From Magnetospirillum aberrantis SpK (GTDB taxonomy: Bacteria; Pseudomonadota; Alphaproteobacteria; Rhodospirillales; Magnetospirillaceae), in assembly GCF_011022235.1 (NCBI RefSeq), contig NZ_JAAIYP010000045.1:1-64000 (forward strand): a DNA stretch of 64,000 nucleotides. The letters run 5' to 3'. The notes under the pieces are model-generated. The model was not told the DNA's origin. It ran no database searches and saw only the letters and a program-made list of their open reading frames with translations. The number at the start of each line of letters is the position of its first letter. The stretch's first letter is position 1. Below, piece by piece: positions 3,884-46,972 of this stretch. The position numbers were made by a program, and so were the translations under genes.

Positions 3884-3894
3884 GGCCGCTCTCT

Positions 3895-5687: not shown

Positions 5688-6487
5688 CGCGTCACCATGA
5701 AGGCGAACACCATGTCGGTGATGATGATGGCGGAAATGGCGTGCACCACCGAGCGCGTGGTCATGCGCCCCACCCCCTCGGCGCCGCCGGTGACCGAGGC
5801 GCCGTTGACCACGCCGACGATGGTCACCAGCACGGCGAAGATGGCGCTTTTGGCCAGGCCATGCATGACGTCGTTGAGCTTGAGCACGGTCTGCAACTCG
5901 TCGCCATAGGCGGCCAGCGAGGTCTGAAGCTGGGCCGAGACGTAAAGCCCGGCCGCCAACAGGCTGACAAGGTCGGCCCACAGGGTCATCAGCGGCAGCA
6001 TCACCACCATCGCCACCAGGGGCGGCACCACCAGGAAACGCACCGGGTTGATGCCCATGACCGTCAGCGAATCGATTTCCTGGTTGATCCGCATGGTGCC
6101 CAGCCGCGCCGCCAGTGCCGAGCCCGAACGCCCGGCCACCAGGATGCCGGTGATCAGCGGCGAGAACTCGCGTACGGTGGAAAGCGCGATCCCCAGCGTG
6201 ACCCGGCTTTCGGCACCGAAGGTGCGCAGCGTGTAGATGCCCTGGATGGCCAGCATCAGGCCGATGGTGGCGGCCAGGATGGTGACGATGGGCAACGCCG
6301 CGATCCCCACTTCCATGGCCTGGGCCACCACCGGGGCCATCCGCACCCGCTGCCGCCGCCGCTGACCGAGAACCAGCCACCACAGCGCCTCGCCCAACAG
6401 GCTGGCGGCGAAGCCGAACTCCTCGAGCCCGCGCACGAAGGCGCGGCCAAGACGGTCGAACAAGGTGTGGAGGCGGGCGGCGAGCAT
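5684..6487 (-). CDS. mlaE: MlaE-type ABC transporter permease
   Basis: A 267-residue inner-membrane permease with an amphipathic N-terminus and about five to six helices. The MlaE signature region is clear: FGAESRVTLGIALSTVREFSPLITGILVAGRSGSA, given here in part as VREFSPLITGILVAGRSGSA, then RINQEIDSLTVMGINPVRFL. It forms the membrane core of the phospholipid transporter. It begins 8 bases after the STAS gene and overlaps mlaF by 4 bases, so the STAS protein, MlaE, MlaF, MlaD and the lipoprotein are probably one transcription unit. Confidence 0.92.
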   Translation of the reverse strand: MLAARLHTLFDRLGRAFVRGLEEFGFAASLLGEALWWLVLGQRRRQRVRMAPVVAQAMEVGIAALPIVTILAATIGLMLAIQGIYTLRTFGAESRVTLGIALSTVREFSPLITGILVAGRSGSALAARLGTMRINQEIDSLTVMGINPVRFLVVPPLVAMVVMLPLMTLWADLVSLLAAGLYVSAQLQTSLAAYGDELQTVLKLNDVMHGLAKSAIFAVLVTIVGVVNGASVTGGAEGVGRMTTRSVVHAISAIIITDMVFAFMVTR

Positions 6488-6495
6488 CGGGCTTC

Positions 6496-6822
6496 CTAAC
6501 CGGCCAAGGCGGCGTCCACAGTGTCGGCCAGGGCGAACACCTTGTCCAGCCGGGCCAGTTGCAGTACCCGCATGGCCGGGGCGCTGACCGCCACCAGGAC
6601 GAAGCGGGTGGCGTTCTTGCGCGCCGCCTGATAGGCCTCGACCAGACTGGCGATGCCGGAACTGTCGATATAGGCGACGCGCGACAGGTCCACCAGCACG
6701 TCACGCTGTTCGAACATCAGGTCCATCAACTGGCGACGCACCGTCGGCGAATGCTGAAGGTCGATCTCGCCGGCCAGGGTCACAACGACGGTGGTGCCGC
6801 GTTCTTGGGTTTCCATCTTCAT
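6496..6822 (-). CDS. STAS-domain protein (anti-anti-sigma-like or MlaB-like)
   Basis: A 108-residue single STAS domain. The motif YIDSSGIASL places Ser54 at the position phosphorylated in SpoIIAA-type anti-anti-sigma factors. It overlaps the upstream phosphatase/kinase-like gene by 4 bases (ATGA) and sits 8 bases before mlaE. Two roles are possible: a partner-switching regulator acting with the upstream protein, or the MlaB subunit that binds MlaF in the Mla complex. The two are not exclusive, and the gene order supports a link between them. The evidence for each role is positional only. Confidence 0.85.
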   Translation of the reverse strand: MKMETQERGTTVVVTLAGEIDLQHSPTVRRQLMDLMFEQRDVLVDLSRVAYIDSSGIASLVEAYQAARKNATRFVLVAVSAPAMRVLQLARLDKVFALADTVDAALAG

Positions 6823-8507
6823 CGGGGGTCTATCCGTCTGCTCATCTGCAACAGGTTGCCGACGCCGTCGGGCGACGTCAGGAACTCCACCCGGTCCATC
6901 ACCGAGCGAATGAAATGCAATCCCAGACCGCCGGGACGCACCTCGTCCAGCGGCCGCGGCAGCAGCCGGGCGCAATCCACCGGCGGCGCCGAATCGTTCA
7001 GACGCACCACCAGGTCGCCACAGGCCCGTTCGACCCGGACCCGGATATCGCCGTCCCCGCCGCCATAGGCATGGCGGATGATGTTCTGACAGGCCTCGTC
7101 CACCGCCAGCACCACGTCGCCGGCCATGTCCTGGCCGCAGCCCAGCGCCGAAACCGCCGCGGACACCGCCCGACGGATGTCGCACAGGGATTCGGGACGG
7201 GCGGGAAACTGCCGGTCCAAGGCGGCCTTGCGCTCCTCGACCAGCACCATGGTCATGTCGTCGCGCAACGCCGCCCCCTTGGGGGCGATGGCGTCGACCA
7301 CCGCCGCCATGCGCGCCGGCGGCGGCAAGGCGCGATGACGCAACAGCAACTCCTCGACCCCTTCGCCGCCCAGCATCTCGCCATCCTCGCCGCGCGCCTC
7401 GGTCAGGCCGTCGGTGAACAGCACCAGGGTCTGGCCGCCCAACTCGATCTCGCTTTCCGGGCAACCGTCGGCGAACAAGGCGGGATCGATGCCCAGGGGC
7501 GGCATGCCGCCCTCGATCCGGCGCACCGTGTCGCCACACAGCAACAGCGGCGTCTCGTGACCGGCATTGGCCAGCACCACCCGCCCGGTCGCGGGTTCCA
7601 GGATGCCGGCGACCATGGTCACGAACATGCCCGCCGAACCGGTTTCCGCCAATTCGGAATCGATGGCCGTCAACAATGCGCCGGGACCGTCCAGGCGCTT
7701 GGACAGGCAGCGAAACAGGCTGGCGGTTTTCGCCATCAAAAGCGCCGCGTTCATGCCCTTGCCCGACACGTCGGCGATGGTGAAGGCGATGCGCCCGTCC
7801 GGCAGTTCCACCACGTCGAAAAAGTCGCCCGACACACCGCGCGCCGGCCGGTTGATACCATGAATGGGAAAATCCGCCGGACGCGACGGCGGCAGCATGG
7901 CGCGCTGAATATCGAAGGCCAGCGCCAGTTCGCGCCGGAACGCCTCGCGCTCGGCCATGGCCGCCGCCTGACGGGCGTTGATCAGCGCCAACGCCGCCGA
8001 AGCGGCCAACGCCTGAAGAATGCGGCGGTCGTCGTCGTCGAACGCCAGGTTGCCGCGTTTGTTGAACAACTCGATGGCGCCCAGGCATTCGTCGCGCACC
8101 GACATGGGCGCACACAGCACCGTGCGGGTGGTGAAGCCGGTGGCGTCGTCCACCTTTTGGGTAAAATCCGGGTCCAGGGCGGTGTCGCGCACCAGTTGCG
8201 GCCGGTTGCGCAGCACCGCGCGCCAGACGATGCCGTCACCTTTCGGCAGCCTGAGCCCGGTCACGTCGGCCGGACCGCAACAGGCGCGGCACACCAGTTC
8301 GCCGCTGTCGCCGTCCATCAGGAACAACGACGCCGCCTCGGCCTCCATCCTTTCGGCGATCAGCTTGAGCCCGACCCGCAGGCTTTCCTCGATGTCGCGC
8401 GACAGGGCGAAATCGGCCGTCATCTCGGCGATCAGCTCGAGATCGTCGGCCAATCCCTGCGGCAAGTCGGGAACCGGCGAAGATGGGGGTAACGGCGCGT
8501 CGTTCAT
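6819..8507 (-). CDS. GAF - PP2C (SpoIIE/RsbU) phosphatase - HATPase regulator
   Basis: A 562-residue cytoplasmic protein with three domains. A GAF sensor domain (about 30-185) is followed by a SpoIIE-type PP2C phosphatase (about 215-420) with DVSGKGMNAALLMAKT, ANAGHETPLL and LFTDGLTEARG. A GHKL ATPase domain of the RsbW type (about 430-555) carries AVDEACQNIIRHAYGG as the N box and PGGLGLHFI as the G box. The combination can both dephosphorylate and phosphorylate a STAS protein, and the gene overlaps one by 4 bases. The signal sensed by GAF is unknown. Confidence 0.88.
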   Translation of the reverse strand: MNDAPLPPSSPVPDLPQGLADDLELIAEMTADFALSRDIEESLRVGLKLIAERMEAEAASLFLMDGDSGELVCRACCGPADVTGLRLPKGDGIVWRAVLRNRPQLVRDTALDPDFTQKVDDATGFTTRTVLCAPMSVRDECLGAIELFNKRGNLAFDDDDRRILQALAASAALALINARQAAAMAEREAFRRELALAFDIQRAMLPPSRPADFPIHGINRPARGVSGDFFDVVELPDGRIAFTIADVSGKGMNAALLMAKTASLFRCLSKRLDGPGALLTAIDSELAETGSAGMFVTMVAGILEPATGRVVLANAGHETPLLLCGDTVRRIEGGMPPLGIDPALFADGCPESEIELGGQTLVLFTDGLTEARGEDGEMLGGEGVEELLLRHRALPPPARMAAVVDAIAPKGAALRDDMTMVLVEERKAALDRQFPARPESLCDIRRAVSAAVSALGCGQDMAGDVVLAVDEACQNIIRHAYGGGDGDIRVRVERACGDLVVRLNDSAPPVDCARLLPRPLDEVRPGGLGLHFIRSVMDRVEFLTSPDGVGNLLQMSRRIDPR

Positions 8508-8573
8508 CGCCGGGCATGATGCCCGGCTTTACCGGCGCCGCCAACCCTTGGCCGCATATACAAACGCCGGAAA

Positions 8574-9377
8574 TTAACCCGCCAGTTCCTTGCCACGGCG
8601 GGTGGCGGCGGCGACGGCGTCGTCCATCAACTCGCCGAATCCCTTGCCCTCGGCCATCAGCACCGCCAGGGCGGCGGCGGTGGTCCCACCGGGACTGGTG
8701 ACGTTGATGCGCAATTGCTCGCTGCTTTCCGCCGACTGGCTCAGCAACTGTCCCGATCCCCACACGGTGGCCCGCGCCAGACGGGTCGCCAGTTCCGGCG
8801 GCAGACCGGCCTTGGCGCCGGCCTTGGCCATCACCTCGGCCAACAGGAACACATAGGCCGGACCCGAACCGGAAACGGCGGTGACCGCGTCCATCAGCCC
8901 CTCGTCGTCGATCCAGGCGACTTCACCCACCGCTTCGAGCAGGATTTGGCAGGCGGCCCGGCGGGCGGCATCCACGCGGGCGTTGGCGACGCAGACGGTG
9001 ATGCCGGCGCGCACGGCGGCCGGTGTGTTGGGCATGGCCCGTACGATGGCGACGTCGCCCAGAAGACCGGCAAAGAACGACACCGGCTTGCCGGCGGCGA
9101 TGGACAGGAACACCCCGTCCTTGAACCGGGCGTAAGAGGGCGCGACCTCGGCCATCACCTGCGGCTTGACCGCCAGCACCACCACGTCGGGCATGAAGGC
9201 GCGATCAACGGCGCCGACCGTATCCACCACCGTCACCCCCTTGGGGCCGAAGGTGTCGCGCGCCGCGCCACCGGGTTCCACCACCACGATGCCGGCGGGG
9301 TCGATGCCCCGCTCGATCCAGCCCGCCAACATGGCGGACCCCATCTTGCCACAGCCGACCAACAGCACTCGGGTCAC
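8574..9377 (-). CDS. proC: Pyrroline-5-carboxylate reductase
   Basis: A 267-residue enzyme of normal family length. The N-terminal Rossmann motif is LLVGCGKMGSAM. The C-terminal dimerisation and substrate region has the ProC signature with VSGSGPAYVF and INVTSPGGTTAAAL. It reduces 1-pyrroline-5-carboxylate to proline with NAD(P)H in the cytoplasm. It follows the YbjN-like gene by 119 bases on the same strand, and the two are neighbours in many alphaproteobacteria as far as I recall. Confidence 0.95.
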   Translation of the reverse strand: MTRVLLVGCGKMGSAMLAGWIERGIDPAGIVVVEPGGAARDTFGPKGVTVVDTVGAVDRAFMPDVVVLAVKPQVMAEVAPSYARFKDGVFLSIAAGKPVSFFAGLLGDVAIVRAMPNTPAAVRAGITVCVANARVDAARRAACQILLEAVGEVAWIDDEGLMDAVTAVSGSGPAYVFLLAEVMAKAGAKAGLPPELATRLARATVWGSGQLLSQSAESSEQLRINVTSPGGTTAAALAVLMAEGKGFGELMDDAVAAATRRGKELAG

Positions 9378-9496
9378 GACGCGCCTCGTTTGCAGATTAC
9401 CGAAGAAGAGAAATTAGATGACCACAGACGGCGACCGTTGAACAGCGGCGATCGACGCCCCGCCCCCGCAACACCCCATGTGGTTTTTTGCGCGTC

Positions 9497-10000
9497 TCAG
9501 GCTTCGCCCACGGTTTCCAACAGCGACGCGGCGATGGCTTCCTTGGCCGACTTGCCGCCCCACACCACGAACTGGAAAGCCGGATAGAAGCGCTCGCACT
9601 CGGTGACCGCGATGTCCATCAGGTCCTCGATCTGCTCGGCCGAGAACCCGGCGGCGCCGCGCAACAGCGAGGTGTGGCGGAACATGGGCACGCCCTCTTC
9701 CTCCCACAGGCCGAAATGTCCGAGCCACAGCTTTTCATTGATCACCGCCAGCAATTCGTGGATCGGCCCACGCTTGGGCGCCGGCACCTTCATGTCGAAA
9801 GCACAGGTGAAGTGCATGCCGCCGGTGTCTTCACGCCAGGCGAAATAAAGCGAGTAGTTACACCACTTACCCGGCACCTCGGCGGCCAGTTCCTCGTCGG
9901 AACGGCGGTCGAAAGCCCAATCGTTGGCGACGACGAATTGCTCGACGATGTCGAGGGGATTGATCGCGGTCTCTTCCTCGTAGACGAGGGAAATCGACAT
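9497..10000 (-). CDS. YbjN-domain protein
   Basis: A 167-residue cytoplasmic protein with a YbjN-like fold (NPLDIVEQFVVANDWAFDR near the start, then ALLRGAAGFSAEQIEDLM, of the bacterial sensory-transduction regulator family). Its exact function is unknown; relatives are thought to assist other proteins in a chaperone-like way. The ATG at 10000 is preceded by a GGAGGG ribosome-binding site, so the upstream frame extension to 10084 is not used. The 278-base gap upstream carries palindromes and DnaA-box-like sites. Confidence 0.8.
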   Translation of the reverse strand: MSISLVYEEETAINPLDIVEQFVVANDWAFDRRSDEELAAEVPGKWCNYSLYFAWREDTGGMHFTCAFDMKVPAPKRGPIHELLAVINEKLWLGHFGLWEEEGVPMFRHTSLLRGAAGFSAEQIEDLMDIAVTECERFYPAFQFVVWGGKSAKEAIAASLLETVGEA

Positions 10001-10123
10001 GCCTTCGCCCTCCGTGGCTTGGCCGTTGTCGGAAAAGGCGTTCTTGGCCCCATGTCTTGTGGCCAGCTTACGCCCCGCGCACAAGCGGTAGAGTAGGCAC
10101 AGCCGCGACCGCGGTGCAACACC

Positions 10124-23666: not shown

Positions 23667-24677
23667 TTGAATACCTCCATTTCTAGTGTGGCCGACATCG
23701 AGTCCCTGATCGCCGCCTTGCCCGCGGCGGATCAGGCCGCCGCCGCCTTGTGGGCCGCCCGCGACCCGCAATTGACCAAGCCGCCGGGCGCCCTGGGCCG
23801 TCTCGAGGAATTGTCGTTGTGGCTGGCCAGTTGGCAGGGGCGTCACCCGCCGCGCCTGGAAACCCCGCGCGCCCGCGTCTTCGCCGGAAACCATGGTGTC
23901 GCCGCGTTGGGCGTGTCGGCCTTTCCCGCCGAGGTCACCGTGCAGATGGTGAAGAACTTCGAGCATGGCGGCGCCGCCATCAACCAGCTCTGCCGCACCT
24001 TCGGCACCGAACTGGCGGTGGTGTCCCTGGACCTTGACCGCCCCACCGCCGACTTCACCAAAGGTCCCGCCATGGACGAGGCCGAATTCGTCGCCGCCTT
24101 CCGTGCCGGCATGGATTCGGTTCCCGACGACACCGACTTGCTGGCCTTGGGCGAAATGGGGATCGGCAACACCACCCCGGCGGCGGCCATCGCCTGCGCG
24201 CTTTATGGCGGCGACGCCGATGGTTGGACCGGGCGCGGAACCGGTGTCGACAATGCCGGCCTGATCCGCAAGACCGAGGTGGTCGCGGCCGGAGCCGCCT
24301 TGCACAAGGGCAAGGCACCGTTGGAAATCCTGCGCTCCCTTGGCGGGCGCGAACTGGCGGCCATGGCCGGCGCCGTGCTGGCGGCGCGTCTCAAGCGGGT
24401 GCCGGTGCTGTTGGACGGCTATGTCTGCACCGCCGCCGCCGCTCCGCTCGAAGCCGCCTGCCCCGGCGCGCTCGACCATTGCGTGGTCGCCCACGTCTCG
24501 GCCGAACCGGGGCATCAGCGCTTGCTGTCGGCACTGGGCAAGGAACCGTTGCTGAGCCTGGGCATGCGTCTGGGCGAGGCGTCGGGCGCCGCCCTGGCCA
24601 TCGGCGTCGTCAAAGGCGCGCTGGCCTGTCACACCGGCATGGCGACTTTTGCCGAGGCCGGCGTCGCGGCAGGATGA
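23667..24677 (+). CDS. cobT: Nicotinate-nucleotide-dimethylbenzimidazole phosphoribosyltransferase
   Basis: A 336-residue enzyme. LTKPPGALGRLEEL, GNHGVAALGVSAFP, GEMGIGNTTPAAAI and LGEASGAALA are family motifs; the Glu of LGEASG is the catalytic base. It makes alpha-ribazole phosphate for the lower ligand of B12. I place the start at the TTG at 23667 behind GGGAGAGG. A TTG 15 bases upstream has no such site. Confidence 0.93.
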   Translation: MNTSISSVADIESLIAALPAADQAAAALWAARDPQLTKPPGALGRLEELSLWLASWQGRHPPRLETPRARVFAGNHGVAALGVSAFPAEVTVQMVKNFEHGGAAINQLCRTFGTELAVVSLDLDRPTADFTKGPAMDEAEFVAAFRAGMDSVPDDTDLLALGEMGIGNTTPAAAIACALYGGDADGWTGRGTGVDNAGLIRKTEVVAAGAALHKGKAPLEILRSLGGRELAAMAGAVLAARLKRVPVLLDGYVCTAAAAPLEAACPGALDHCVVAHVSAEPGHQRLLSALGKEPLLSLGMRLGEASGAALAIGVVKGALACHTGMATFAEAGVAAG

Positions 24678-24686
24678 CCGCCACCA

Positions 24687-24737
24687 GGGCGCCGCTCAGG
24701 CGGCGGGTGGATTGACAGGGGCGCCGCTCAGGCGGCG
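24687..24737 (-). repeat. Repeated 19-base hairpin sequence at the trpF 3' end
   Basis: GGGCGCCGCTCAGGCGGCG occurs at 24687-24705 and again at 24719-24737, where it includes the trpF stop codon. Each copy can fold as CGCCGC-CTGA-GCGGCG. The copies may act as terminators for the convergent cobT and trpF genes, or be a small local duplication. Confidence 0.6.
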
Positions 24738-25369
24738 CTCTTGGCCGCCGCCACGAAAGCGGCGATCTTGGCCGGGTCCTTGACGCCGGGACGCTCCTCG
24801 ACCCCGGACGACACGTCCACCGCCGGGGCTCCGGTCACCCGGATCGCCTCGGCCACGTTGGCGGACGTCAGGCCACCCGCCAGCATCCACGGCACCGGGC
24901 ATTTGAACCCCGCCAGCACCGACCAGTCGAAGCTGACGGCGTTGCCGCCGGGCAAATCCGCCCCCTTGGGCGGCTTGGCGTCGAACAAGATCCAGTCGAC
25001 CACCTCGTAAAACGGCTCGGCGGCGGCAAGGTCGTCCTTTGTCGCCACCGGGATGACCTTCATCACCTCGACGCCGTATTCGGCCCGCACCCGCGCCAGA
25101 CGCTCGGGCGTTTCCGATCCGTGGAACTGAAGCATGTCCAGGCGCAAATGGCTGGTCACCTCGTCCAACAACGCATCGTCGGGATCGACGAACAGGCCGA
25201 CCTTGCAGACACCCTCGACGAACTGGCTCAACTCGGCCGCCTGTTCGGCGCTCACCGCGCGCGGGCTCTTGGGATAGAACACGAAGCCGATGAACTCGGC
25301 ACCGGCTTCCAGCGCCGCGTCGATGGCCTCTTCGTCGTTCAGGCCGCAAATCTTGACCTGTGCCGCCAT
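24728..25369 (-). CDS. trpF: Phosphoribosylanthranilate isomerase
   Basis: A 213-residue TIM-barrel enzyme. VKICGLNDEEAIDAAL holds the catalytic Cys, GFVFYPKSPRAVS and GLFVDPDD follow, and the phosphate-binding loop is LAGGLTSANV with VDVSSGVE. It converts phosphoribosylanthranilate to CdRP in tryptophan synthesis. It is 10 bases downstream of pyrF; trpA and trpB are not in the window. Confidence 0.94.
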   Translation of the reverse strand: MAAQVKICGLNDEEAIDAALEAGAEFIGFVFYPKSPRAVSAEQAAELSQFVEGVCKVGLFVDPDDALLDEVTSHLRLDMLQFHGSETPERLARVRAEYGVEVMKVIPVATKDDLAAAEPFYEVVDWILFDAKPPKGADLPGGNAVSFDWSVLAGFKCPVPWMLAGGLTSANVAEAIRVTGAPAVDVSSGVEERPGVKDPAKIAAFVAAAKSAA

Positions 25370-25379
25370 GGGATATCCC

Positions 25380-26084
25380 CTACCGCAGTTCTTCCGCGAT
25401 GCGTCGCGCCGCGTCGGCCGGGTTGGTGGCGCCGGTGATCGGGCGGCCGATGACCAACAGGTCGGCGCCGGCCTTCAACGCCTCTTTCGGCGTCATGAAC
25501 CGCTTTTGGTCGCCAGCCTCGGCCCAGGCGGGGCGAATGCCGGGAACCACCAGGGTCATGTCCGAGCCGACCACGTCGCGCACATGCGCCACCTCGTGCG
25601 GGGAACAGACCAGACCATCGACGCCGGCCTTTTGCGCCAGTTCGGCCAGCCGCTTGACCTGATCGAGCACAGTGCCGCCAAAGCCCACCTCGGCCATCGC
25701 CGGCTGGTCGAGCGAGGTCAGCACGGTGACCGCCAGAACCTTGGTCGCCGACCGGTTGGCCTTGGCCGCGCCTTCGCGCGCCGCCTCGGCCGCCGCCTGC
25801 ATCATGGCGAAACCGCCAGAGGCATGGATGGTGGTCAGCCGCGGCGCCAGCTTGGCCACGCCACGCATGGCGCCGGCCACCGTGTTGGGAATGTCGTGCA
25901 GCTTGAGGTCCAGGAACAACGGCATGCCGAGATCGGCAATGGCTTCGACCCCACGCGGCCCGCAATAGCTGAAGAACTCCAGACCCAGCTTGACGCCGGC
26001 CACCAGCCCCTTGAGGCCGGTTGCAAGCGCCGCCGCCTGGGCAACATCAGTGGTGTCGAGGGCGACGTAAACGGGCGAAGTCAT
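25380..26084 (-). CDS. pyrF: Orotidine 5'-phosphate decarboxylase
   Basis: A 234-residue TIM-barrel enzyme. The catalytic array is in FLDLKLHDIPNTV, the substrate loop is TIHASGG, and the C-terminal phosphate site is VIGRPITGATNP. It makes UMP, the last step of the de novo pyrimidine path. It follows lapA on the same strand with a 73-base gap and probably shares a transcript with trpF. Confidence 0.95.
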   Translation of the reverse strand: MTSPVYVALDTTDVAQAAALATGLKGLVAGVKLGLEFFSYCGPRGVEAIADLGMPLFLDLKLHDIPNTVAGAMRGVAKLAPRLTTIHASGGFAMMQAAAEAAREGAAKANRSATKVLAVTVLTSLDQPAMAEVGFGGTVLDQVKRLAELAQKAGVDGLVCSPHEVAHVRDVVGSDMTLVVPGIRPAWAEAGDQKRFMTPKEALKAGADLLVIGRPITGATNPADAARRIAEELR

Positions 26085-38738: not shown

Positions 38739-41531
38739 GTGAGCACTCCCCGCCACGTGTATCTGGTGGACGGCTCGGGATTCATTTTCCGGGCCTTCCA
38801 CGGTCTGCCCATGATGACGCGCGCCGACGGCACCCCCGTCAACGCCGTCTACGGCTTCACCACCATGATGATGAAGCTGTTGAACGAGACCGACGCCGAC
38901 CATGTGGCGGTCATCTTCGACGCGGCGCGGAAGACCTTCCGCAGCGACATCTACCCCGCATACAAGGCCAACCGCCCCCCCGCTCCCGAGGAGTTGGTGC
39001 CCCAGTTCCCGCTGATCCGCGAGGCGACACGGGCCTTCAACGTGCCCGCCGTCGAGCAGGAAGGGTTCGAGGCCGACGACCTGATCGCCACCTACGCCAC
39101 CCAGGCGGTGGCCCTGGGCGCCCGCGTCACCATCGTCTCGTCCGACAAGGACCTGATGCAGTTGGTGGGCGATGGCGTCGAGATGATGGACCCGCTCAAG
39201 GGGCGTGCCATCGCCGCCGAACAGGTGGTCGAGAAGTTCGGCGTGCCGCCCGACAAGGTGGTGGACGTCCAGTCCCTGTGCGGCGATTCCACCGACAACG
39301 TGCCGGGCGTGCCGGGCATCGGCATCAAGACCGCCGCCCAGTTGATCACCGAATACGGCGACCTTGACACCTTGTTGGCCCGCGCAGCCGAAATCAAGCA
39401 GCCCAAGCGGCGCGAAACCTTGATGACCAACGCCGACATGGCCCGCGTCAGCCGCGAGTTGGTGCGTCTCAAGCGCGACGTGCCGGTGGTCGAGCCGCTG
39501 GAAAGCTTCGCCAAGCGCCAGCCCGCGCCCGAATTGCTGGCCGAGTTCGTCCGCGAGCAGGGCTTCAAGTCGCTGAGTGCCCGGTTGGGCGGCGGTGGCG
39601 CCACCATGCCCAAGATTCCCGCGCCCAAGTCCGCGACGTCCGCCCTGCCTCCAACCGCCGCGATGGCTCCTGCCGCCGCGCCGGACAAAATCGAATACGA
39701 GTTGGTAACCTCGGTCGCTTCCCTGGACGCCTGGGTGGCCGAGGCGACCCGCGCCGGCATCGTCGCCATCGACACCGAGACCACCGGCCTGGACGCCCTG
39801 CGCGCCGAACTGGTGGGGGTGTCGCTGTCCACCGCGCCGGGGCGGGCCTGCTACATCCCGGTCAAGCATTCGCCGGCCGAGGCGCAGGGCTCGCTGTTGC
39901 TGAGCGATCCCGGCGCGCCGGAAAGCCCCAAGATCCTGCCCCGCGACGTCGTCCTGGAAAAGCTGCGCCCGCTTTGCGCCGACCCGTCGGTTCTCAAGGT
40001 CGGGCACAACATCAAATACGACTTGCACATCTTGAACCGCGCCGGTCTTGAGGTTGCGCCCATCGACGACACCATGCTGCTGTCCTATGTGCTGGACGGC
40101 GCCAGCCACGGCCATGGCATGGACGAACTGGCCCAGCGTCATCTGGGGCATTCCACCATCAAGTTCGCCGACGTCTGCGGCAGCGGCAAGGCCCAGATCA
40201 CCTTCGACCGGGTGCCGCTGGACAAGGCCCTGGCCTATGCCGCCGAAGACGCCGACATCACGCTCAGGTTGCATGCCCTGCTCAAGGGGCGGTTGCTGGC
40301 CGAACACATGGTGACGGTGTACGAGACGCTGGAACGCCCCCTGGCGACCATCGTCGCGGCCATGGAGCGCGAGGGCATCAAGGTCGACAGCCCCGCCCTG
40401 CTGGCGCTGTCCGAGGAATTCGGCGCCCGCATGGCCGAATTGGAAAAAGACATCCACGCCCTGGCCGGACACGAATTCAACGTCGCCTCGCCTGCCCAGT
40501 TGGGCAAGGTTCTGTTCGAGGAAATGGCGCTGCCCGGCGGCAAGAAGACCAAGACCGGGCAATGGGCCACCGGCGCCGATGCGCTGGAGGAACTGGCGCT
40601 ACAGGGACACGCCCTGCCCGCCCGGTTGCTCGACTGGCGCCAGTTGGCCAAGCTGAAAAGCACCTACGCCGACGCGCTGGTCGCCCAGATCAACCCCGAC
40701 ACACGGCGCGTCCACACCAGTTATTCGCTGGCGGTGACCACCACCGGCCGGCTGTCGTCGTCGGACCCCAACCTTCAGAACATCCCCATCCGCACCGAGG
40801 AAGGGCGCAAGATCCGCGCAGCCTTCGTGCCCGAGCCGGGCAACGTGCTGTTGTCGGCCGATTATTCGCAGATCGAATTGCGTCTGGTCGCCCACGTGGC
40901 GGGAATCGAGGGGCTGAAACAGGCGTTCCGGGACGGCGCCGACATCCACGCCATCACCGCCTCCCAAGTGTTCGGCGTGCCGATCGAGGGCATGGACCCG
41001 TCCCTGCGCCGCCGCGCCAAGGCCATCAATTTCGGCGTCATCTACGGCATCTCGGCATTTGGTCTGGCGCAACAGCTGGGCATCTCGAACGGCGAGGCCA
41101 AGACCTTCATCGACGCCTATTTCGCCCGCTTCCCGGAAATCCGCGACTACATGGAACGGGCCAAACAGGAAGCACGCGACAACGGCTTCGTCACCACCTT
41201 GTTCGGCCGCAAGGTCTATGTGCCCGACATCAACGCCAAGGGACCATTGCGGGCCTTTGGCGAGCGTGCCGCCATCAACGGCCCGATCCAGGGCGGCGCC
41301 GCCGACATCATCAAACGTGCCATGATCCGCCTGCCCGGCGAGATCGCCGCCGCCGGATCGAAGGCCCGCATGCTGCTTCAGGTGCACGACGAACTGGTTT
41401 TCGAAGTTCCCGAAGCCGAGATCGCGGACACCACCGCCTTGGTCAAGCGGGTGATGGAAGGGGCCGCCCAACTGGACGTGCCGCTGGTGGTCGAGGTGGG
41501 AACCGGTGCGTCATGGGACGCCGCTCACTGA
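38739..41531 (+). CDS. polA: DNA polymerase I
   Basis: A 930-residue enzyme of normal length. The 5'-3' exonuclease (about 1-290) starts HVYLVDGSGFIFRAFHG. The 3'-5' exonuclease has VAIDTETTGLD with the catalytic DxE, so proofreading is likely present. The polymerase has LLSADYSQIELR as motif A and LLQVHDELVFEVP as motif C. It fills gaps in repair and removes primers. The start is a GTG at 38739, 2 bases after the zinc-finger stop, with only a weak ribosome-binding site. Confidence 0.95.
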   Translation: MSTPRHVYLVDGSGFIFRAFHGLPMMTRADGTPVNAVYGFTTMMMKLLNETDADHVAVIFDAARKTFRSDIYPAYKANRPPAPEELVPQFPLIREATRAFNVPAVEQEGFEADDLIATYATQAVALGARVTIVSSDKDLMQLVGDGVEMMDPLKGRAIAAEQVVEKFGVPPDKVVDVQSLCGDSTDNVPGVPGIGIKTAAQLITEYGDLDTLLARAAEIKQPKRRETLMTNADMARVSRELVRLKRDVPVVEPLESFAKRQPAPELLAEFVREQGFKSLSARLGGGGATMPKIPAPKSATSALPPTAAMAPAAAPDKIEYELVTSVASLDAWVAEATRAGIVAIDTETTGLDALRAELVGVSLSTAPGRACYIPVKHSPAEAQGSLLLSDPGAPESPKILPRDVVLEKLRPLCADPSVLKVGHNIKYDLHILNRAGLEVAPIDDTMLLSYVLDGASHGHGMDELAQRHLGHSTIKFADVCGSGKAQITFDRVPLDKALAYAAEDADITLRLHALLKGRLLAEHMVTVYETLERPLATIVAAMEREGIKVDSPALLALSEEFGARMAELEKDIHALAGHEFNVASPAQLGKVLFEEMALPGGKKTKTGQWATGADALEELALQGHALPARLLDWRQLAKLKSTYADALVAQINPDTRRVHTSYSLAVTTTGRLSSSDPNLQNIPIRTEEGRKIRAAFVPEPGNVLLSADYSQIELRLVAHVAGIEGLKQAFRDGADIHAITASQVFGVPIEGMDPSLRRRAKAINFGVIYGISAFGLAQQLGISNGEAKTFIDAYFARFPEIRDYMERAKQEARDNGFVTTLFGRKVYVPDINAKGPLRAFGERAAINGPIQGGAADIIKRAMIRLPGEIAAAGSKARMLLQVHDELVFEVPEAEIADTTALVKRVMEGAAQLDVPLVVEVGTGASWDAAH

Positions 41532-41561
41532 GCTCGCTCCATCATTAGTAATTACACATGG

Positions 41562-41588
41562 CGCCCGCGGGGACTTTCCCTGCGGGCG
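41562..41588 (+). terminator. Hairpin after polA
   Basis: CGCCCGC (41562-41568) pairs with GCGGGCG (41582-41588), and the loop GGGGACTTTCCCT can pair further inside. It lies 30 bases after the polA stop. The run after it is AT-rich but not a clean T tract. Confidence 0.6.
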
Positions 41589-41589
41589 T

Positions 41590-41724
41590 TGTCATTTCAT
41601 TCAATATCCATTCATTTTCATTTGAACAACAAACACAACATTCACAATGCATAGGCTTCATTTTCATAAGTGATACAAATTAATTCCACCAAGATATTCC
41701 ATGCCATTTCAGTTTTGCTATAAT
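41590..41724 (+). promoter_or_regulatory. AT-rich region ending in a perfect TATAAT box
   Basis: About 135 bases after the polA hairpin are strikingly AT-rich for this window. TTCATTTTCAT occurs twice (around 41613 and 41657). A consensus -10 element TATAAT stands at 41719-41724, with no good -35 at the usual distance. It probably drives the two small genes that follow. An AT-rich upstream element may help RNA polymerase or bind a nucleoid protein. Confidence 0.55.
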
Positions 41725-41781
41725 GCAGCACAGCAAAGAACTTGCCTCGCCGTTACCCCCCGAACTACCGGAGGCCGAACC

Positions 41782-41865
41782 ATGGAAGCCGCCACCTTCG
41801 AGATGGTGCTTACCGCCCGCGCCGAGGTCGAACGCCTCGACCTGCCCCGGCAACTGGCCGCCTGA
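41782..41865 (+). CDS. Small ORF, 27 aa
   Basis: An ATG 58 bases after the TATAAT box follows CGGAGG with a 7-base spacer. The peptide is MEAATFEMVLTARAEVERLD, then LPRQLAA, and looks like a short charged amphipathic helix. It precedes the 90-aa coiled-coil gene by 20 bases. The promoter, ribosome-binding site and spacing together support translation, perhaps as a leader or a partner peptide. No family is known to me. Confidence 0.55.
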   Translation: MEAATFEMVLTARAEVERLDLPRQLAA

Positions 41866-41885
41866 AGCCCAAAGGGACGTCTGCC

Positions 41886-42158
41886 ATGAGCAACCCGTTC
41901 GAAATCGAACTCGCCCGGCTGGAAAGCGAACGCAAGCGCCTCGACGCCATGCTTGACGACGCGGTGGCTCAATTCGCCCTGGTCGAGGAAGACATGAATG
42001 CCCGCATGAAGGTCGCCAGCCCGGCCCAGCTTCAGGCGCTGATGGAAGAACGCGCCCGCATCGAGGAATCGCTGGGTATCGCCGCGCTGGTGGACCGCAT
42101 CGACGAAATCCGCGCCCGCGCGGCGCTGGTCAAAAGCGCCGCCGCAGCGGCCGCCTGA
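41886..42158 (+). CDS. Small coiled-coil protein of unknown function
   Basis: A 90-residue protein that is almost wholly helical. MSNPFEIELARLESERKRLD and the following ALVEEDMNARMKV, ALMEERARIEESLG and VDRIDEIRARAALV contain heptad-like repeats, so it is probably a coiled coil. The end is a run of alanines. AAGGGACG lies upstream of the ATG. A strong terminator follows it, so this gene and the 27-aa ORF form a closed unit. I do not recognise the family. Confidence 0.7.
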   Translation: MSNPFEIELARLESERKRLDAMLDDAVAQFALVEEDMNARMKVASPAQLQALMEERARIEESLGIAALVDRIDEIRARAALVKSAAAAAA

Positions 42159-42176
42159 GATCCCCGCGATCCATGC

Positions 42177-42208
42177 CCCCTCTTCCGCCAGGCGGAAGAG
42201 GGGTTTTT
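42177..42208 (+). terminator. Strong rho-independent terminator
   Basis: CCCCTCTTCCG (42177-42187) pairs with CGGAAGAGGGG (42193-42203) across a 5-base loop and is followed by TTTTT. It closes the unit of two small genes and lies 6 bases before the end of the restriction-modification gene. Confidence 0.9.
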
Positions 42209-42213
42209 CATGT

Positions 42214-44250
42214 TCAACGTTCGTAGGGACCGAGGAAGCGGCAACCGTTGAAATGGATCATGTGCTCGGGCTTGCTTGCGACCCAAGCCTCGGTTTCCCA
42301 ACCGATCTCCTTGGAGAACTTCGCGAACGCCTTCATGGTTTCGAAGGCGCTGACGTAGACACACCCTGCCGTACAGTCCTTGGTGAACTCGCGCAGCTTC
42401 ATGTGGCGAATTTCGCTGATCGGGTTGGACGAATGCACCGCCTCGACCAAAAACAACCAATTCCGCTCCGGCTCATAGGCGACGACATCGGGCAGCATGT
42501 CGCGGGACAATTCCGGCAACCCCAACGTCTTCAAAGCTGCCTCGTCACAATAAAGCAGCTTGTTTTCCGTATCGCCGATATACAGGACCTGGGCCCCTCG
42601 GGAGAACCGAGGAAGAAACTGCTCGACCACAGCTTTCTGAATGGCGTTGTGCGGCCCCGGAGACAGCTTCAGCTCTTGTCCCCCAGGGAGGGTCACTGGA
42701 ACCATTTTCATCTCGCGCGCCTTGCTCAGCCGGTCGGCCAAAGCCACATGCTGCGCCCGGAACCGAATCAGTTCATCGTCCCAAGCGGTTCCACCATAAC
42801 TCTGCAACAAGGGTAATGCCTCGGCGACAATCGCGTAGCCGCGCGTTCCGTCGTTGGTGTCCGCAGCGGAATTGGCCGCGCTTTTGGCGACAAGGCCTAC
42901 CTCGACCAGAATGACCAGATCCTTCCGCCGTACGTCGTCATAGGAAGAATCCGCGACGTTCTCACCATAATACTTGTTCCAGAAGGCGATAATCTGTCGG
43001 GTCGTCACCGGGGGAACACGATTATCGACCAGATGGCTTTTCGCATTGGACCATCCATCCCCAGGCGCCAGATGCGCGACCGCAAGCAGCGCCAACGCCA
43101 GACGCTCGCGGCGGCGTGCGGTATAATCACGAAGAGGCACTCCGATGCTGCGCAGGATGTTCTGAGCCTGCTCGATCTTTATGGTAACGGTATCGCTATC
43201 CAAAATTTCCCCCATCCCTTTGGCGACCGGCACCGCCCCAGGGGGAAGCCCGTCCAGGTGCCTCCAGACCTGAGCGGCGATAGCCCTGCCCATCAACGGA
43301 GGGACGGCATTGCCGATCTGCTCGAACTGGTCGTATTCACCACCCTCAAAGGTGAACCAATCCGGGAACCCCTGCAACCGGGCAGCCTCTCGCACCGTCA
43401 ACATGCGCCGTCGACCATCAAGCAAGCGAATCCGCAGCATATCCGAAGTCGCCCCACCCAGATTACGGCACGTCACCGTCCGCGACGGCTGATCCAGGTG
43501 CAGGTCACGGGGCCGGACACAGTTGCTTTTCCTTTCGTATTCAGCAACATAGCGATCCATACTGGCGGTCAGGAAGCGACTATCGGGCCCGTGGCTATAG
43601 GCCAGTGGCCCCAAAGCTATTCCCGCCGTAACAGGATTGGACACAACCGCTTCCGGCCACGACCAGCCGACGCGAGAGGCGACGATCACGACACGTTCGC
43701 GTTTCTGCGGTACACCGAATTCCGCCGCCTTGAGCAAGCGCGCATCCACCGCATAACCAAACCGCGTCAATTCGTCCGCGACCTGCCGTAGATAATCCTT
43801 GTTCCGGAACAGCAAACCTCGAACGTTTTCAATAATGGCGATCTTCGGCCGCACCCGTTCGACGGCGTCCAAGAATATGGGAAAGCCATCTCGGGGATCA
43901 CGCTTCCCCCGTTGATAGCCGATTTGACTGAACGGTTGACACGGCGGGCCTCCGATCAGCACCTCCGCCTTCCCTTCCGGCATTCCCACCGTCAGGAAAA
44001 CTTCGTCACACGGCCCCGCCAGATTCTTGCTGTAGGTTGCGGCAACCGCCGGCTTCATCTCGTAGCCGGCGGTCAGGAAGCCTTGCGACTCGAACCCCAA
44101 AGCCATGCCACCGCACCCTGCGAACAGGTCCATGACCACGGGGCCGGTCGGTGGCAGGGACTGATCGGGCAGGCATTCCTGGACCCACGGCAACCACGCT
44201 TCGTGATCCGAGAAATCCAAGAGACCGGGGGAATCAATCCGACGAACCAT
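42214..44250 (-). CDS. C5-cytosine DNA methyltransferase fused to a BsuBI/PstI-type restriction endonuclease
   Basis: A 678-residue protein in one frame. The N-terminal half (about 35-335) is an m5C methyltransferase: motif I VMDLFAGCGGMALGF, motif IV IGGPPCQPFSQIG with catalytic Cys104, motif VI IIENVRGL (141-143), motif VIII QKRERVVIV, motif IX PSRTVTCRNLGG and motif X EQIGNAVPPLMGRAI. The target-recognition segment is short. The rest (about 370-678) matches the BsuBI/PstI endonuclease family: a winged-helix-like region, then PGPHNAIQKAVVEQFLPRF, VLYIGDTENKLLYCDE, LPDVVAYEPERNWLFLVEAV and HFNGCRFLGPY. So modification and cutting lie on one polypeptide. Base composition is less GC-rich than neighbours, a sign of transfer. 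The sequence specificity is unknown. Confidence 0.88.
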   Translation of the reverse strand: MVRRIDSPGLLDFSDHEAWLPWVQECLPDQSLPPTGPVVMDLFAGCGGMALGFESQGFLTAGYEMKPAVAATYSKNLAGPCDEVFLTVGMPEGKAEVLIGGPPCQPFSQIGYQRGKRDPRDGFPIFLDAVERVRPKIAIIENVRGLLFRNKDYLRQVADELTRFGYAVDARLLKAAEFGVPQKRERVVIVASRVGWSWPEAVVSNPVTAGIALGPLAYSHGPDSRFLTASMDRYVAEYERKSNCVRPRDLHLDQPSRTVTCRNLGGATSDMLRIRLLDGRRRMLTVREAARLQGFPDWFTFEGGEYDQFEQIGNAVPPLMGRAIAAQVWRHLDGLPPGAVPVAKGMGEILDSDTVTIKIEQAQNILRSIGVPLRDYTARRRERLALALLAVAHLAPGDGWSNAKSHLVDNRVPPVTTRQIIAFWNKYYGENVADSSYDDVRRKDLVILVEVGLVAKSAANSAADTNDGTRGYAIVAEALPLLQSYGGTAWDDELIRFRAQHVALADRLSKAREMKMVPVTLPGGQELKLSPGPHNAIQKAVVEQFLPRFSRGAQVLYIGDTENKLLYCDEAALKTLGLPELSRDMLPDVVAYEPERNWLFLVEAVHSSNPISEIRHMKLREFTKDCTAGCVYVSAFETMKAFAKFSKEIGWETEAWVASKPEHMIHFNGCRFLGPYER

Positions 44251-44285
44251 GCCGACTTGTAACGTGTTTCAAATCGCTTGTCCCC

Positions 44286-45587
44286 CTACTTCCCCAGCCC
44301 CTCGGGCTTGCCCACCACCACGAAGGTCAGACGGGACGGGTCGAGCAGGCGGGCGGCCACCGCCTTGACCTGTTCCTTGCTCACCGCCTCGATCAAGGCG
44401 TTGCGGCGATCAAGATAGTCGATGCCCAGCTTGTCCAGTTGCATCGCCGTCAACAGGCCGGCGACCGAGGAGGTGGAATCCATCTGAAGGGCGAAGGACC
44501 CGGTCAGATAGGTCTTGGCGTCGGCCAGTTCCTGGTCGGTGACGCCGTTTTCCACCATGCGGGCGAACTGCGCCTTGATCAGTTCCAACGATTCCCTGGT
44601 CCGCGCGTTCTGGGTGGCGACGCCGCCGCTGATCAGGCCGGCATGGTCCAAAGGCACTAGATAGGAATAGACGGAATACGCCAACCCCCGCTTTTCCCGA
44701 ACTTCCTCGGTCAGCCACGAGGAAAAGCCGCCGCCGCCCAGGATGTAATTCATCACATAGGCCGCGTACCAATCGGGATCGTCGCGTTTGAGGCCCTGGG
44801 TTCCGAACGCGGCGACGCTTTGCGGGTTGTCGCGTTCGATCACCTGGATACGGCCCGCCGCCCCCACCATCGCTTCCGGCACGGCAATCTTCGGGTGACG
44901 ATCCGGCAGGGCGCCGAAGGTCTTGTCCAGCAACGGCGCCAGTTCGGCCGGGGTGATGTCGCCCACCACCGAGACCACCATGCCCTGGCGGCTGAGCCAG
45001 GTCTTGGCGTAGGTCTTGAGTTCGGCGGTGGTGATCGACTTGATGGTCGCCGGTTCACCCCGCGACGGCGTCCCATAGGGGTGGTCGCCGAACACCAGAC
45101 GATACCAGGCACGGGCCGCCACCGCTTCGGGGCTTTGCGCCTCGCGGGCCAGCAGGGTCACAATCTGGCTGCGCACCCGCTCGACCGGTTCCTTGTCGAA
45201 ACGCGGCTGGGTCAGGGCCAGCCGGAACAGGTCGAAAGCCACGTCGCGACGTTCGCTCAGCGTCTTCAGCGATCCAAGGAGATTATCCTTGCCGGCGCTG
45301 AACGACATCTGGATGGCCAAGTCCTCCAGCTTGCCCTGGAAGGTCTGGGAATCGTACGGTCCCGCCCCTTCGTCCAACAGGCCCGACACCATGGTCGCCA
45401 GACCGGGCTTGCCCTCGACCGAGGCGCCGCCGGCCATGGCCAGCGACAGCGACAAGATGGGGTTGGAATGGTCTTGGACCAGCCACGCCTCGACGCCGCC
45501 GGGACTGACCACGCGCTCGATGGTGACGGCATGGGCGGCAGGTGTCGCCACCACCAGCACGAACAGGAATGCGAACAGACGGCGCAT
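44286..45587 (-). CDS. M16 peptidase-like protein, non-catalytic partner
   Basis: A 433-residue protein with signal peptide MRRLFAFLFVLVVATPAAHA and two M16 domains. The HxxEH zinc motif is missing at the expected place (GLLDEGAGPYDS instead of HLLEH), but VREKRGLAYSVYSYL, typical of the second half, is present. In related bacteria it forms a heterodimer with an active M16 subunit. Its ATG shares one base with the stop of the active gene upstream. Confidence 0.88.
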   Translation of the reverse strand: MRRLFAFLFVLVVATPAAHAVTIERVVSPGGVEAWLVQDHSNPILSLSLAMAGGASVEGKPGLATMVSGLLDEGAGPYDSQTFQGKLEDLAIQMSFSAGKDNLLGSLKTLSERRDVAFDLFRLALTQPRFDKEPVERVRSQIVTLLAREAQSPEAVAARAWYRLVFGDHPYGTPSRGEPATIKSITTAELKTYAKTWLSRQGMVVSVVGDITPAELAPLLDKTFGALPDRHPKIAVPEAMVGAAGRIQVIERDNPQSVAAFGTQGLKRDDPDWYAAYVMNYILGGGGFSSWLTEEVREKRGLAYSVYSYLVPLDHAGLISGGVATQNARTRESLELIKAQFARMVENGVTDQELADAKTYLTGSFALQMDSTSSVAGLLTAMQLDKLGIDYLDRRNALIEAVSKEQVKAVAARLLDPSRLTFVVVGKPEGLGK

Positions 45588-46972
45588 CAGCGGACCTCCT
45601 TGGCGGCGGGCTGCATGGGGGCCGGACGGGCGGCGGCCGTCTCCACGCCCGGAACCGGCAACAAGACGCCGGTGACCGACGCCTTGGCGTCCAGCACCGC
45701 ACGGGCGGCGGCGTTGACCTGGGCGGCATCGACGGCGGCGATGCGGGCGGGCCAAGCCTCGACGTCCTCGACCGTCTGGCCGGTGGTCAACGCCTGTCCC
45801 AGGACCTGGGCGGCGGTGTGCAGCGAATCGCGCGCATAGACAACGTTGGCGCGCAGCCGTTCCTTGGCCCGCTCGACCTCGGCCGCGTCGATGCCCTTTT
45901 CCAGCACGCGGGCGATTTCCTTGTCCATGGCGGCCTGAAGCTTGTCCATGGCGATTCCGGGGCGAGGCGTCGCCGCCACGCCGAACGTGGTGTGATCCAG
46001 GGACGAGGGGTCGTACCATGCCGATGCCGAGGTCGCGACGCCTTGCTCCACCACCAGGGATTTATACAGCCGCGCGGTGGTGTTGCCGCCCAGGATCTCG
46101 GACAGCACCTCAAGCGCATAGGGCTGCGCCTTGTCGGCAGCCGAGGCATAACTGGGGGCGAGGTACGAACGGCCCCACGACGGCTGTTGCACGCGGGCGT
46201 CGGACAACGTCACAATCCGTGCCGCCACCGGCGGCGGCTCCTCGATACGCTGGCGCTCGGGCACATTTTCCGGCTTGAGCGGACCGTAATAGGTTTCCGC
46301 CAATTGCCGCACCTTCTCGGGCTGCACGTCGCCCGCCACCACCAGGATGGCATTGTTGGGGGCGTACCAGCGCTTGTAGAAGTCGAGCGCGTCCTGACGC
46401 GACAGACTGGCGATCTCGCTGGCCCAGCCGATGATCGGCCGGCGATAGGGATGGTTGAGGTAAAGCGCGGCCTCGACCTGCTCGGCCAGAAGCGCCTGGG
46501 GATTGTTGTCGGTGCGCGAACGGCGCTCCTCCTCGACCACGGCGCGTTCGGTGGTGACGTTGGAATCGTCCAGCGTCAGGTTGCGCATGCGGTCGGCTTC
46601 CATCTTCATCACCGCTTCCAGTCGGTCGGCGGCGACGTTCTGATAATAGGCGGTGTAGTCGGACGAGGTGAAGGCGTTGTCGCGACCGCCCATGCGGGCG
46701 ACGATCTTGGAAAACTCGCCCGGCGGCACACTTGGCGTTCCCTTGAACATCAGGTGTTCCAAAAGGTGCGCGATGCCGCTTTTGCCCGGCACCTCGTCGG
46801 CGGCGCCGACCCGATACCACACCATGTGGCTGACGATCGGGGCGCGGTGGTTTTCCACCACCACCACCTGAAGGCCGTTGTCCAGCCGATAGGTGGTGGG
46901 ATTGAACACCTGGGCGGCCGCCGGCAACGGCGACAACAAGGCGGCGGCCAGGGCGAGACGGGCGAGTTTCAT
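45587..46972 (-). CDS. M16 zinc peptidase, active subunit
   Basis: A 461-residue protein. The signal peptide MKLARLALAAALLSPLPAAA leads to NGLQVVVVENHRAPIVSHMV. The inverted zinc motif H69LLEH73 precedes LMFKGTP. It degrades peptides in the periplasm. The ATG at 46972 has GAGGAAGT upstream; the frame extends further without support. Its partner is translated from an overlapping start. Confidence 0.92.
   Translation of the reverse strand: MKLARLALAAALLSPLPAAAQVFNPTTYRLDNGLQVVVVENHRAPIVSHMVWYRVGAADEVPGKSGIAHLLEHLMFKGTPSVPPGEFSKIVARMGGRDNAFTSSDYTAYYQNVAADRLEAVMKMEADRMRNLTLDDSNVTTERAVVEEERRSRTDNNPQALLAEQVEAALYLNHPYRRPIIGWASEIASLSRQDALDFYKRWYAPNNAILVVAGDVQPEKVRQLAETYYGPLKPENVPERQRIEEPPPVAARIVTLSDARVQQPSWGRSYLAPSYASAADKAQPYALEVLSEILGGNTTARLYKSLVVEQGVATSASAWYDPSSLDHTTFGVAATPRPGIAMDKLQAAMDKEIARVLEKGIDAAEVERAKERLRANVVYARDSLHTAAQVLGQALTTGQTVEDVEAWPARIAAVDAAQVNAAARAVLDAKASVTGVLLPVPGVETAAARPAPMQPAAKEVR

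Follow-up and report, generated by a model that had tools for sequence, protein, structure and literature searches.

PstI and BsuBI are stand-alone nucleases specific for CTGCAG, and the related SdaI, an 8-base cutter, has a longer site. A gene in a 64,000-nucleotide stretch of Magnetospirillum aberrantis SpK (assembly GCF_011022235.1, contig NZ_JAAIYP010000045.1, positions 1 to 64,000 of the forward strand; hereafter the window) raises the question of how a nuclease of this type came to share one polypeptide with a C5-cytosine (m5C) methyltransferase, and which site such a protein would recognise. We propose, with a probability of about 0.8, that the gene encodes a Type IIC, one-protein restriction-modification (RM) enzyme acting at CTGCAG, which would have been fused from a two-gene system and acquired horizontally into a lineage whose core genome is now almost cleared of the site. 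The parts of the gene on which the argument rests are the following.

42214..44250, minus strand: fused RM gene, m5C methyltransferase plus BsuBI/PstI-type endonuclease, 678 amino acids (open frame and Pfam)
43228..44250, minus strand: methyltransferase half, residues 1-341 (Pfam, alignment and fold comparison)
43936..43944, minus strand: PCQ motif with the presumed catalytic Cys104 (motif position)
43417..43662, minus strand: target-recognition region between motifs VIII and IX, about residues 197-278 (alignment, with boundaries set by inspection)
43201..43248, minus strand: linker, about residues 335-350 (low confidence in the AlphaFold2 model)
43213..43215, minus strand: codon of Met346, a possible ancestral or internal nuclease start (alignment to stand-alone nucleases)
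42739..43179, minus strand: winged-helix domain PF17728, residues 358-504 (Pfam)
42244..42702, minus strand: nuclease domain PF06616, residues 517-669, with D560, K564, P587-D588, E603, E654 and H666 (Pfam, alignment)

The gene is a single open frame with an ATG start and no internal stops. Profile searches (Pfam, hmmscan) assigned its first half to PF00145 (DNA_methylase; E 1.9e-55, in two stretches) and its second half to the winged-helix family PF17728 (BsuBI_PstI_RE_N; E 6.1e-27) and the nuclease family PF06616 (BsuBI_PstI_RE; E 2.4e-59), all well past the curated cut-offs, so that both domains by which the BsuBI/PstI family is recognised are present. This confirms the core of an earlier note on this DNA, which had described a single-chain RM protein made of an m5C methyltransferase and a BsuBI/PstI-type nuclease and had proposed searching the C-terminus with PF06616 and its winged-helix partner. 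The m5C motifs stand in order, PCQ at 103-105 with Cys104, ENV at 141 and QKRER at 182, as that note had read them, followed by IGNAVP at 312 (GNAVPP). The PCQ cysteine is the catalytic residue of m5C enzymes generally. In the PADLOC collection, the REase_II model PDLC03420 covers residues 357-678 (E 1.2e-89), and nearly the same C-terminal part also matches positions 531-839 of the MTase_II model PDLC03359, which has 840 positions. Among proteins of known structure, the nearest relative of the C-terminal half is SdaI (2ixs), aligned over its residues 11-338 of 338 (E 8.5e-60), and the closest sequence in the Protein Data Bank to the methyltransferase half is M.HaeIII.

The residues expected of a working nuclease are in place. 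D560, P587, D588, E603, E654 and H666 are invariant in all 27 other nuclease rows of the alignment, and the K564 column holds lysine in 22 of these rows, arginine in 3, threonine in 1 and alanine in 1. The PD...E, GDT..K and WETE...H residues of the BsuBI/PstI family are all retained in the fusion, and the PD...E pattern suggests which of them may bind metal and take part in catalysis. One candidate defect was considered and rejected: SdaI has EAVKS where the window protein has EAVHS, which might suggest a lost catalytic lysine, but this column is threonine in 20 of the 27 rows and K564 of the GDTxxK motif is kept.

An AlphaFold2 model built on a 37-row alignment (mean predicted local distance difference test score, pLDDT, 87.2; predicted template modelling score 0.55) is confident in both halves and falls below pLDDT 50 at the 16-residue joint, residues 335-350; for this reason the halves seem to be connected through a short flexible link, with their mutual placement left unfixed by the model. 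Foldseek returned SdaI first and M.HaeIII second. With VIA-align the best m5C methyltransferases were M.HaeIII and M.HhaI (Z about 30, within residues 4-339), and SdaI reached Z 24.1 over residues 357-671 with a root-mean-square deviation of 16.4 across 302 residues, so that the subdomains are positioned differently in the model from those of SdaI.

The origin of the chain is best approached through its relatives. A scan of genomes with patterns built from this one protein, whose reach is close relatives only, found two, both with the same pair as adjacent genes. In Vibrio sp. Hep-1b-8 (L006) the methyltransferase (7998-8990) and the nuclease (8998-10020) are separated by 7 nucleotides (nt), and in the Planctomycetota metagenome-assembled genome (MAG) JANXQG010000430 (L005) the methyltransferase (52-1197) and the nuclease (1181-2230, listed with a TTG start) overlap or nearly touch, depending on the start codon chosen. 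Their methyltransferases are 51% (Vibrio) and 54% (Planctomycetota) identical to that of the window, and both nucleases 47%. They share with the fusion the methyltransferase subfamily, the nuclease clade and the gene order, and differ from it in being two separate genes; the stand-alone nuclease genes start at about the position of Met346. Because the two nearest relatives carry the pair as neighbours, a natural fusion, formed when a two-gene system lost its gene border, is the best reading of this gene, and the reverse course, a fused ancestor splitting into two genes, is less economical. Such two-gene relatives also suggest that both halves go back to complete enzymes, each equipped with a recognition part, which tells against the earlier idea that one half might determine specificity. 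A recognition block, [NR]PRDL..D.P.RT.TCRNL.GAT.DM.R, is common to all five aligned m5C enzymes.

No second example of the fusion was found in the genomes, plasmid records and viral loci searched. No other full-length fusion appeared in 190 genomes of the class or in 61 relatives at E 1e-30; the 12 congeners lacked it, G201 giving a 37% identical match to the methyltransferase part only. None of the 82 plasmid records with a match reached 80% coverage of the fusion protein. PF06616 loci were also collected from three genome sets (398 genomes representing the phylum, 317 the order, and 392 the phylum to which the Planctomycetota MAG belongs) and joined by 53 viral loci; among those that could be classed, the one m5C fusion recognised was that of the window. 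Three phage records carry a related nuclease, and three of the viral methyltransferase loci examined (the best 79 of 277 relatives) hold a nuclease, always as a separate frame. PF06616 itself is infrequent (E 1e-10), with matches in 11 of the 398 phylum genomes, 10 of the 317 order genomes and 25 of the 392 from the MAG's phylum.

The earlier note had called the pairing unusual, and the survey agrees. Sorting 106 loci that hold the nuclease by profiles of m5C and N6-methyladenine (m6A) partners gave 87 with an m6A partner (75 separate, 12 fused) and 6 with an m5C partner (5 separate and one fused, the window gene); the remaining 13, mostly partial frames or loci cut at a contig end, were left without a class. 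These are loci and not independent systems, since L005/L295 are one place, as are L057/L276, and several viral contigs are near-identical; the 6 m5C loci thus include one place counted twice. A further m5C pair, L190, came from the methyltransferase scan and lies outside the 106. The window protein resembles PstI, BsuBI and SdaI in its nuclease half, which has PF17728 and PF06616 and aligns with SdaI nearly end to end, and differs in its partner: nucleases in the survey usually stand beside an m6A methyltransferase, whereas that of the window has an m5C enzyme in the same chain.

A tree built from 55 nuclease rows united the window nuclease with L005 and L006 in one clade (support 100/100) and placed the other m5C-paired nucleases, L171 and L174, with L150 and L170 (100/100), whose partners are m6A enzymes. 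A single origin of m5C pairing was rejected: the tree requires two changes, and a constraint uniting the five m5C-paired rows, a group defined ahead of the tree, failed the approximately unbiased test (p-AU 0.0003), with L130 and L006 on long branches. The five m5C methyltransferases are nonetheless one subfamily, the four stand-alone ones being 49-53% identical to that of the window when aligned. On a simple reading, the m6A partner would have given way at least twice to an m5C enzyme of one specificity. The two-gene m5C systems of L174 and L171 may lie in small defence clusters on viral contigs, the first (2210-3937) beside a GmrSD gene and the second (5990-7831) beside an AIPR gene. Among the best 79 of 277 viral relatives of the methyltransferase, seven are 48-61% identical to that of the window and the rest at most 41%. 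Two methyltransferases of the same subfamily on viral contigs, L185 (61%) and L187 (53%), have no PstI-like nuclease within 3 kb on either side, and perhaps protect the viruses themselves from CTGCAG restriction.

The proposed site rests mainly on the composition of the host genome, where CTGCAG occurs 42 times in 4,148,414 bases against about 859 expected (scaled from a sample), a depletion for which the earlier note had suggested looking; the window has none. The expectation is a Markov estimate from 4- and 5-mers, with 464 kb of the genome sampled, and in that sample CTGCAG was found 11 times against 96.1 expected (0.11), the lowest ratio of any 6-base palindrome save one with an expectation of 2.1. 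Three tracts (C1, 24.7-27.2 kb; C34, 155-192 kb; C36, 71-98 kb), which are probably recently acquired islands, hold 24 of the 42 sites, and 315 kb sampled from C34 outside 150-195 kb hold 2. On C34 the 5 kb bins with sites mostly have lower GC content, and the tract contains another m5C methyltransferase (L002). By count of CTGCAG the host is lowest of 61 genomes, its own and 60 relatives; counts in its 12 congeners run from 126 to 2120, and the three nearest by identity of the M16 peptidase encoded next to the fusion have 2083 (G199), 866 (G192, 79% complete) and 838 (G190). Depletion as a general trait of the lineage was rejected on the Markov ratios of G199 (0.78), G200 (0.68), G191 (0.81), G195 (0.83) and G207 (0.52).

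Several observations weigh against attributing this depletion to the fusion. Two of the 8 genomes sampled for Markov ratios are also low, G196 (0.28) and G194 (0.15, with only 19.7 expected), and CTGCAG is scarce in G241 (66 in 2.6 Mb), G219 (72 in 2.7 Mb), G229 (73), G194 (126), G203 (182) and G193 (225), none of which is among the PF06616 matches in the 317 order genomes. No depletion is seen in G202 (1509), whose PF06616 gene is more distant; the other genomes of the set with PF06616 are G208 (326) and G234 (1629). Nor is CTGCAG scarce in the Vibrio that carries the pair as two genes (436 against 502 in its control), and since its copy adjoins a phage-integrase fragment the system may be new there; the Planctomycetota MAG with the two-gene form is CTGCAG-poor (169 against 995). 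Finally, CCCGGG is equally depleted in the host (20 against 163.8 expected in the 464 kb sample), which suggests another, SmaI/XmaI-like system, present or past.

As to other sources of CTGCAG cleavage in the host, a profile search found no second PF06616 gene, and no PstI-type m6A enzyme was seen, the single PF07669 match being HsdM-like with 20 bits to the PstI-partner profile; other nuclease families were not searched for. That HsdM-like frame, at about 116 kb of C44 (L311), is by eye followed by an HsdS-like frame and preceded by an HsdR-like one, and probably belongs to a Type I system. Other m5C enzymes are encoded on C34 and C8. The depletion is thus supporting, non-exclusive evidence, and on the whole the specificity of the fusion is very probably CTGCAG. 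An m5C partner would be chemically suited to protect this site, as methylating either cytosine of CTGCAG reportedly prevents PstI from cutting (excerpts of PMC7497271); T4gt DNA, with hydroxymethylcytosine, is likewise completely resistant to PstI (excerpts of PMC7653180).

Another or longer specificity, such as CCTGCAGG as in SdaI or a short methyltransferase motif, with the depletion left by an earlier and since lost PstI-like system, would accord with the 8-base site of the nearest solved relative, with the depletion of several relatives that have no such gene and with the undepleted Vibrio. We nevertheless consider it rather unlikely, as a loss at the 6-base level to 0.11 of expectation is far too deep for an 8-base cutter, and the host is lower than all its relatives, including the three nearest by M16 identity. 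Loss of CTGCAG through deamination of m5C, which is mutagenic, and not through selection against cutting, is very improbable: CTACAG stands at 0.46 of expectation, inside the range of seven relatives (0.33-0.76), and TTGCAG at 1.32 is no higher than ATGCAG (1.43) and GTGCAG (1.35), a comparison that Markov normalisation makes a weak test.

Other alternatives concern the protein. An orphan m5C enzyme with a decaying tail, its nuclease dead or not made, is conceivable in that both activities are predicted from sequence and threonine occupies the position of His606 in 20 of 27 relatives; both two-gene relatives, however, likewise have histidine there, the proposed catalytic residues and a complete C-terminus are retained, and the purge of sites suggests cutting, all of which makes this account distinctly unlikely. 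Two products, the full-length protein and a free nuclease started at Met346, seem unlikely: Met346 lies near the start of the stand-alone nucleases, but no convincing Shine-Dalgarno sequence stands at a proper distance, AAAGGG abutting the ATG. An assembly or sequencing artefact joining two genes has in its favour that the genome is a draft of 48 contigs, that this is the only m5C fusion seen, and that the linker includes two homopolymers, five C and five G long, at which a miscounted base could shift the frame. With the third-position GC content alike in the two halves and the frame open over 684 codons, we hold such an artefact to be highly improbable.

For the CTGCAG-specific Type IIC enzyme that we prefer, the following course of events may be envisaged. 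A head-to-tail pair of m5C methyltransferase and PstI-like nuclease genes, like those of Vibrio Hep-1b-8 and the Planctomycetota MAG, would have lost its border. The N-terminal half would methylate one of the two CTGCAG cytosines at C5, thereby protecting host DNA, and the C-terminal SdaI/PstI-like half, probably dimeric on the palindrome, would cut unmethylated CTGCAG in phage or plasmid DNA. The gene would have arrived horizontally long ago, or have followed another CTGCAG system, and the core genome would have been nearly cleared of the site. Most methyltransferases are active as monomers and nucleases are typically dimeric, as discussed for a Type IIC chain in excerpts of PMC12707154, so that in theory an accumulating chain should methylate before it cuts. 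Such a methylating but not cutting phase is our preferred account of how the enzyme could be established safely, and it fits the absence of an adjacent control gene. If the enzyme acts as proposed, m5C is predicted at CTGCAG.

One-chain forms with an m6A enzyme do exist, a point that the earlier note had missed. PDLC03359 is matched over almost its full length by two viral-contig fusions of an m6A enzyme to a BsuBI-type nuclease (1795 and 1286 bits), which means that such forms are already catalogued. They resemble the window protein in placing a methyltransferase before a PstI-like nuclease in one chain, and differ in their NPPY m6A methyltransferase and in a nuclease outside the window's clade. 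Closer in chemistry is RM.Eco29kI, an engineered m5C Type IIC fusion described in excerpts of PMC3039593, a functional single chain in which an m5C methyltransferase is likewise joined to the nuclease of a palindromic system; it is laboratory-made, with a GIY-YIG nuclease in front and the site CCGCGG. Its authors considered it possible that two-gene systems have bifunctional derivatives in nature too, and the Type IIC enzymes tabulated in the excerpts consulted have m6A methyltransferases with one engineered exception.

The window gene unites a predicted endonuclease and a predicted methyltransferase in one polypeptide, which by sequence places it in Type IIC. The natural Type IIC/IIG enzymes MmeI, Eco57I and BcgI similarly hold both activities in one polypeptide, but are m6A enzymes, mostly with a PD-(D/E)XK domain in front and cleavage away from the site (excerpts of PMC4081073 and PMC3039593). 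Type IIC is mostly of the gamma class, with the alpha-class BtgZI as an exception (excerpts of PMC4081073); the fusion lacks the gamma-class m6A domain and has the m5C domain PF00145. Origin by fusion of two genes appears rare, 0.9% of Type IIC enzymes resembling a two-gene system by more than 50% (excerpts of PMC4176335). Judged by title and opening of the abstract, none of the papers listed in the literature searches describes a natural m5C Type IIC enzyme, with REBASE outside the search and subscription journals largely so. The chances are about even that this is the first natural Type IIC enzyme of the m5C class to be described that has a palindromic site of the PstI type, with unfused relatives about 50% identical, in a family where m5C replaced m6A at least twice while CTGCAG was kept, and that it drove the near-total loss of CTGCAG from its host. 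The gene is in any case a candidate natural counterpart of the engineered Eco29kI fusion, and a compact object for testing how methylation and cutting are kept apart within a single chain, and in what way a nuclease swaps its methyltransferase while keeping its site.

The surroundings of the gene bear on how it was acquired, and comprise the following.

44286..45590, minus strand: M16 peptidase gene, upstream neighbour, 35 nt before the fusion (the stretch used in searches)
41886..42158, plus strand: small convergent gene after polA, downstream neighbour, with no Pfam match
42177..42203, plus strand: terminator-like stem of the convergent small gene (stem count not above shuffles)

The GC content of the fusion, about 0.60 against mostly 0.63-0.71 elsewhere in the window, is lower than that of its neighbours, as the earlier note had observed, and at third positions it is 0.695 and 0.698 in the two halves against 0.84-0.88 in four neighbouring genes. 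This deviation and the absence of the fusion from the 12 congeners support the horizontal origin proposed there, and the deep loss of CTGCAG argues against a very recent acquisition.

The note's account of the context fared less well. It had placed the gene alone after a strong terminator, but the T run of the stem lies on the plus strand, so that the stem belongs to the convergent small gene, and the fusion begins 35 nt past the stop of the M16 peptidase gene on its own strand, with which it may be transcribed. Terminator-like stems number 2 in the region against a mean of 3.7 in shuffles, and neither strand of 41500-44700 gave a match to a sigma-70-type promoter. Gene order around the locus also varies within the genus. 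The trpF block (window 24731-25474, PF00697) lies about 0.15-2 kb from the M16 gene in 3 of 8 relatives (G199, G191 and G192), and cobT (window about 23998-24673; PF02277 in L264) follows the small gene after polA in 2 of 10 (G199 and G195; 1.5 kb flank). The window has a different order, with cobT and trpF adjacent (24673/24731) and the small gene, the RM gene and the M16 gene together elsewhere (42158/44286). On the simplest, though not certain, reading the fusion probably stands at a rearrangement junction of this lineage, a feature that the earlier note had overlooked.

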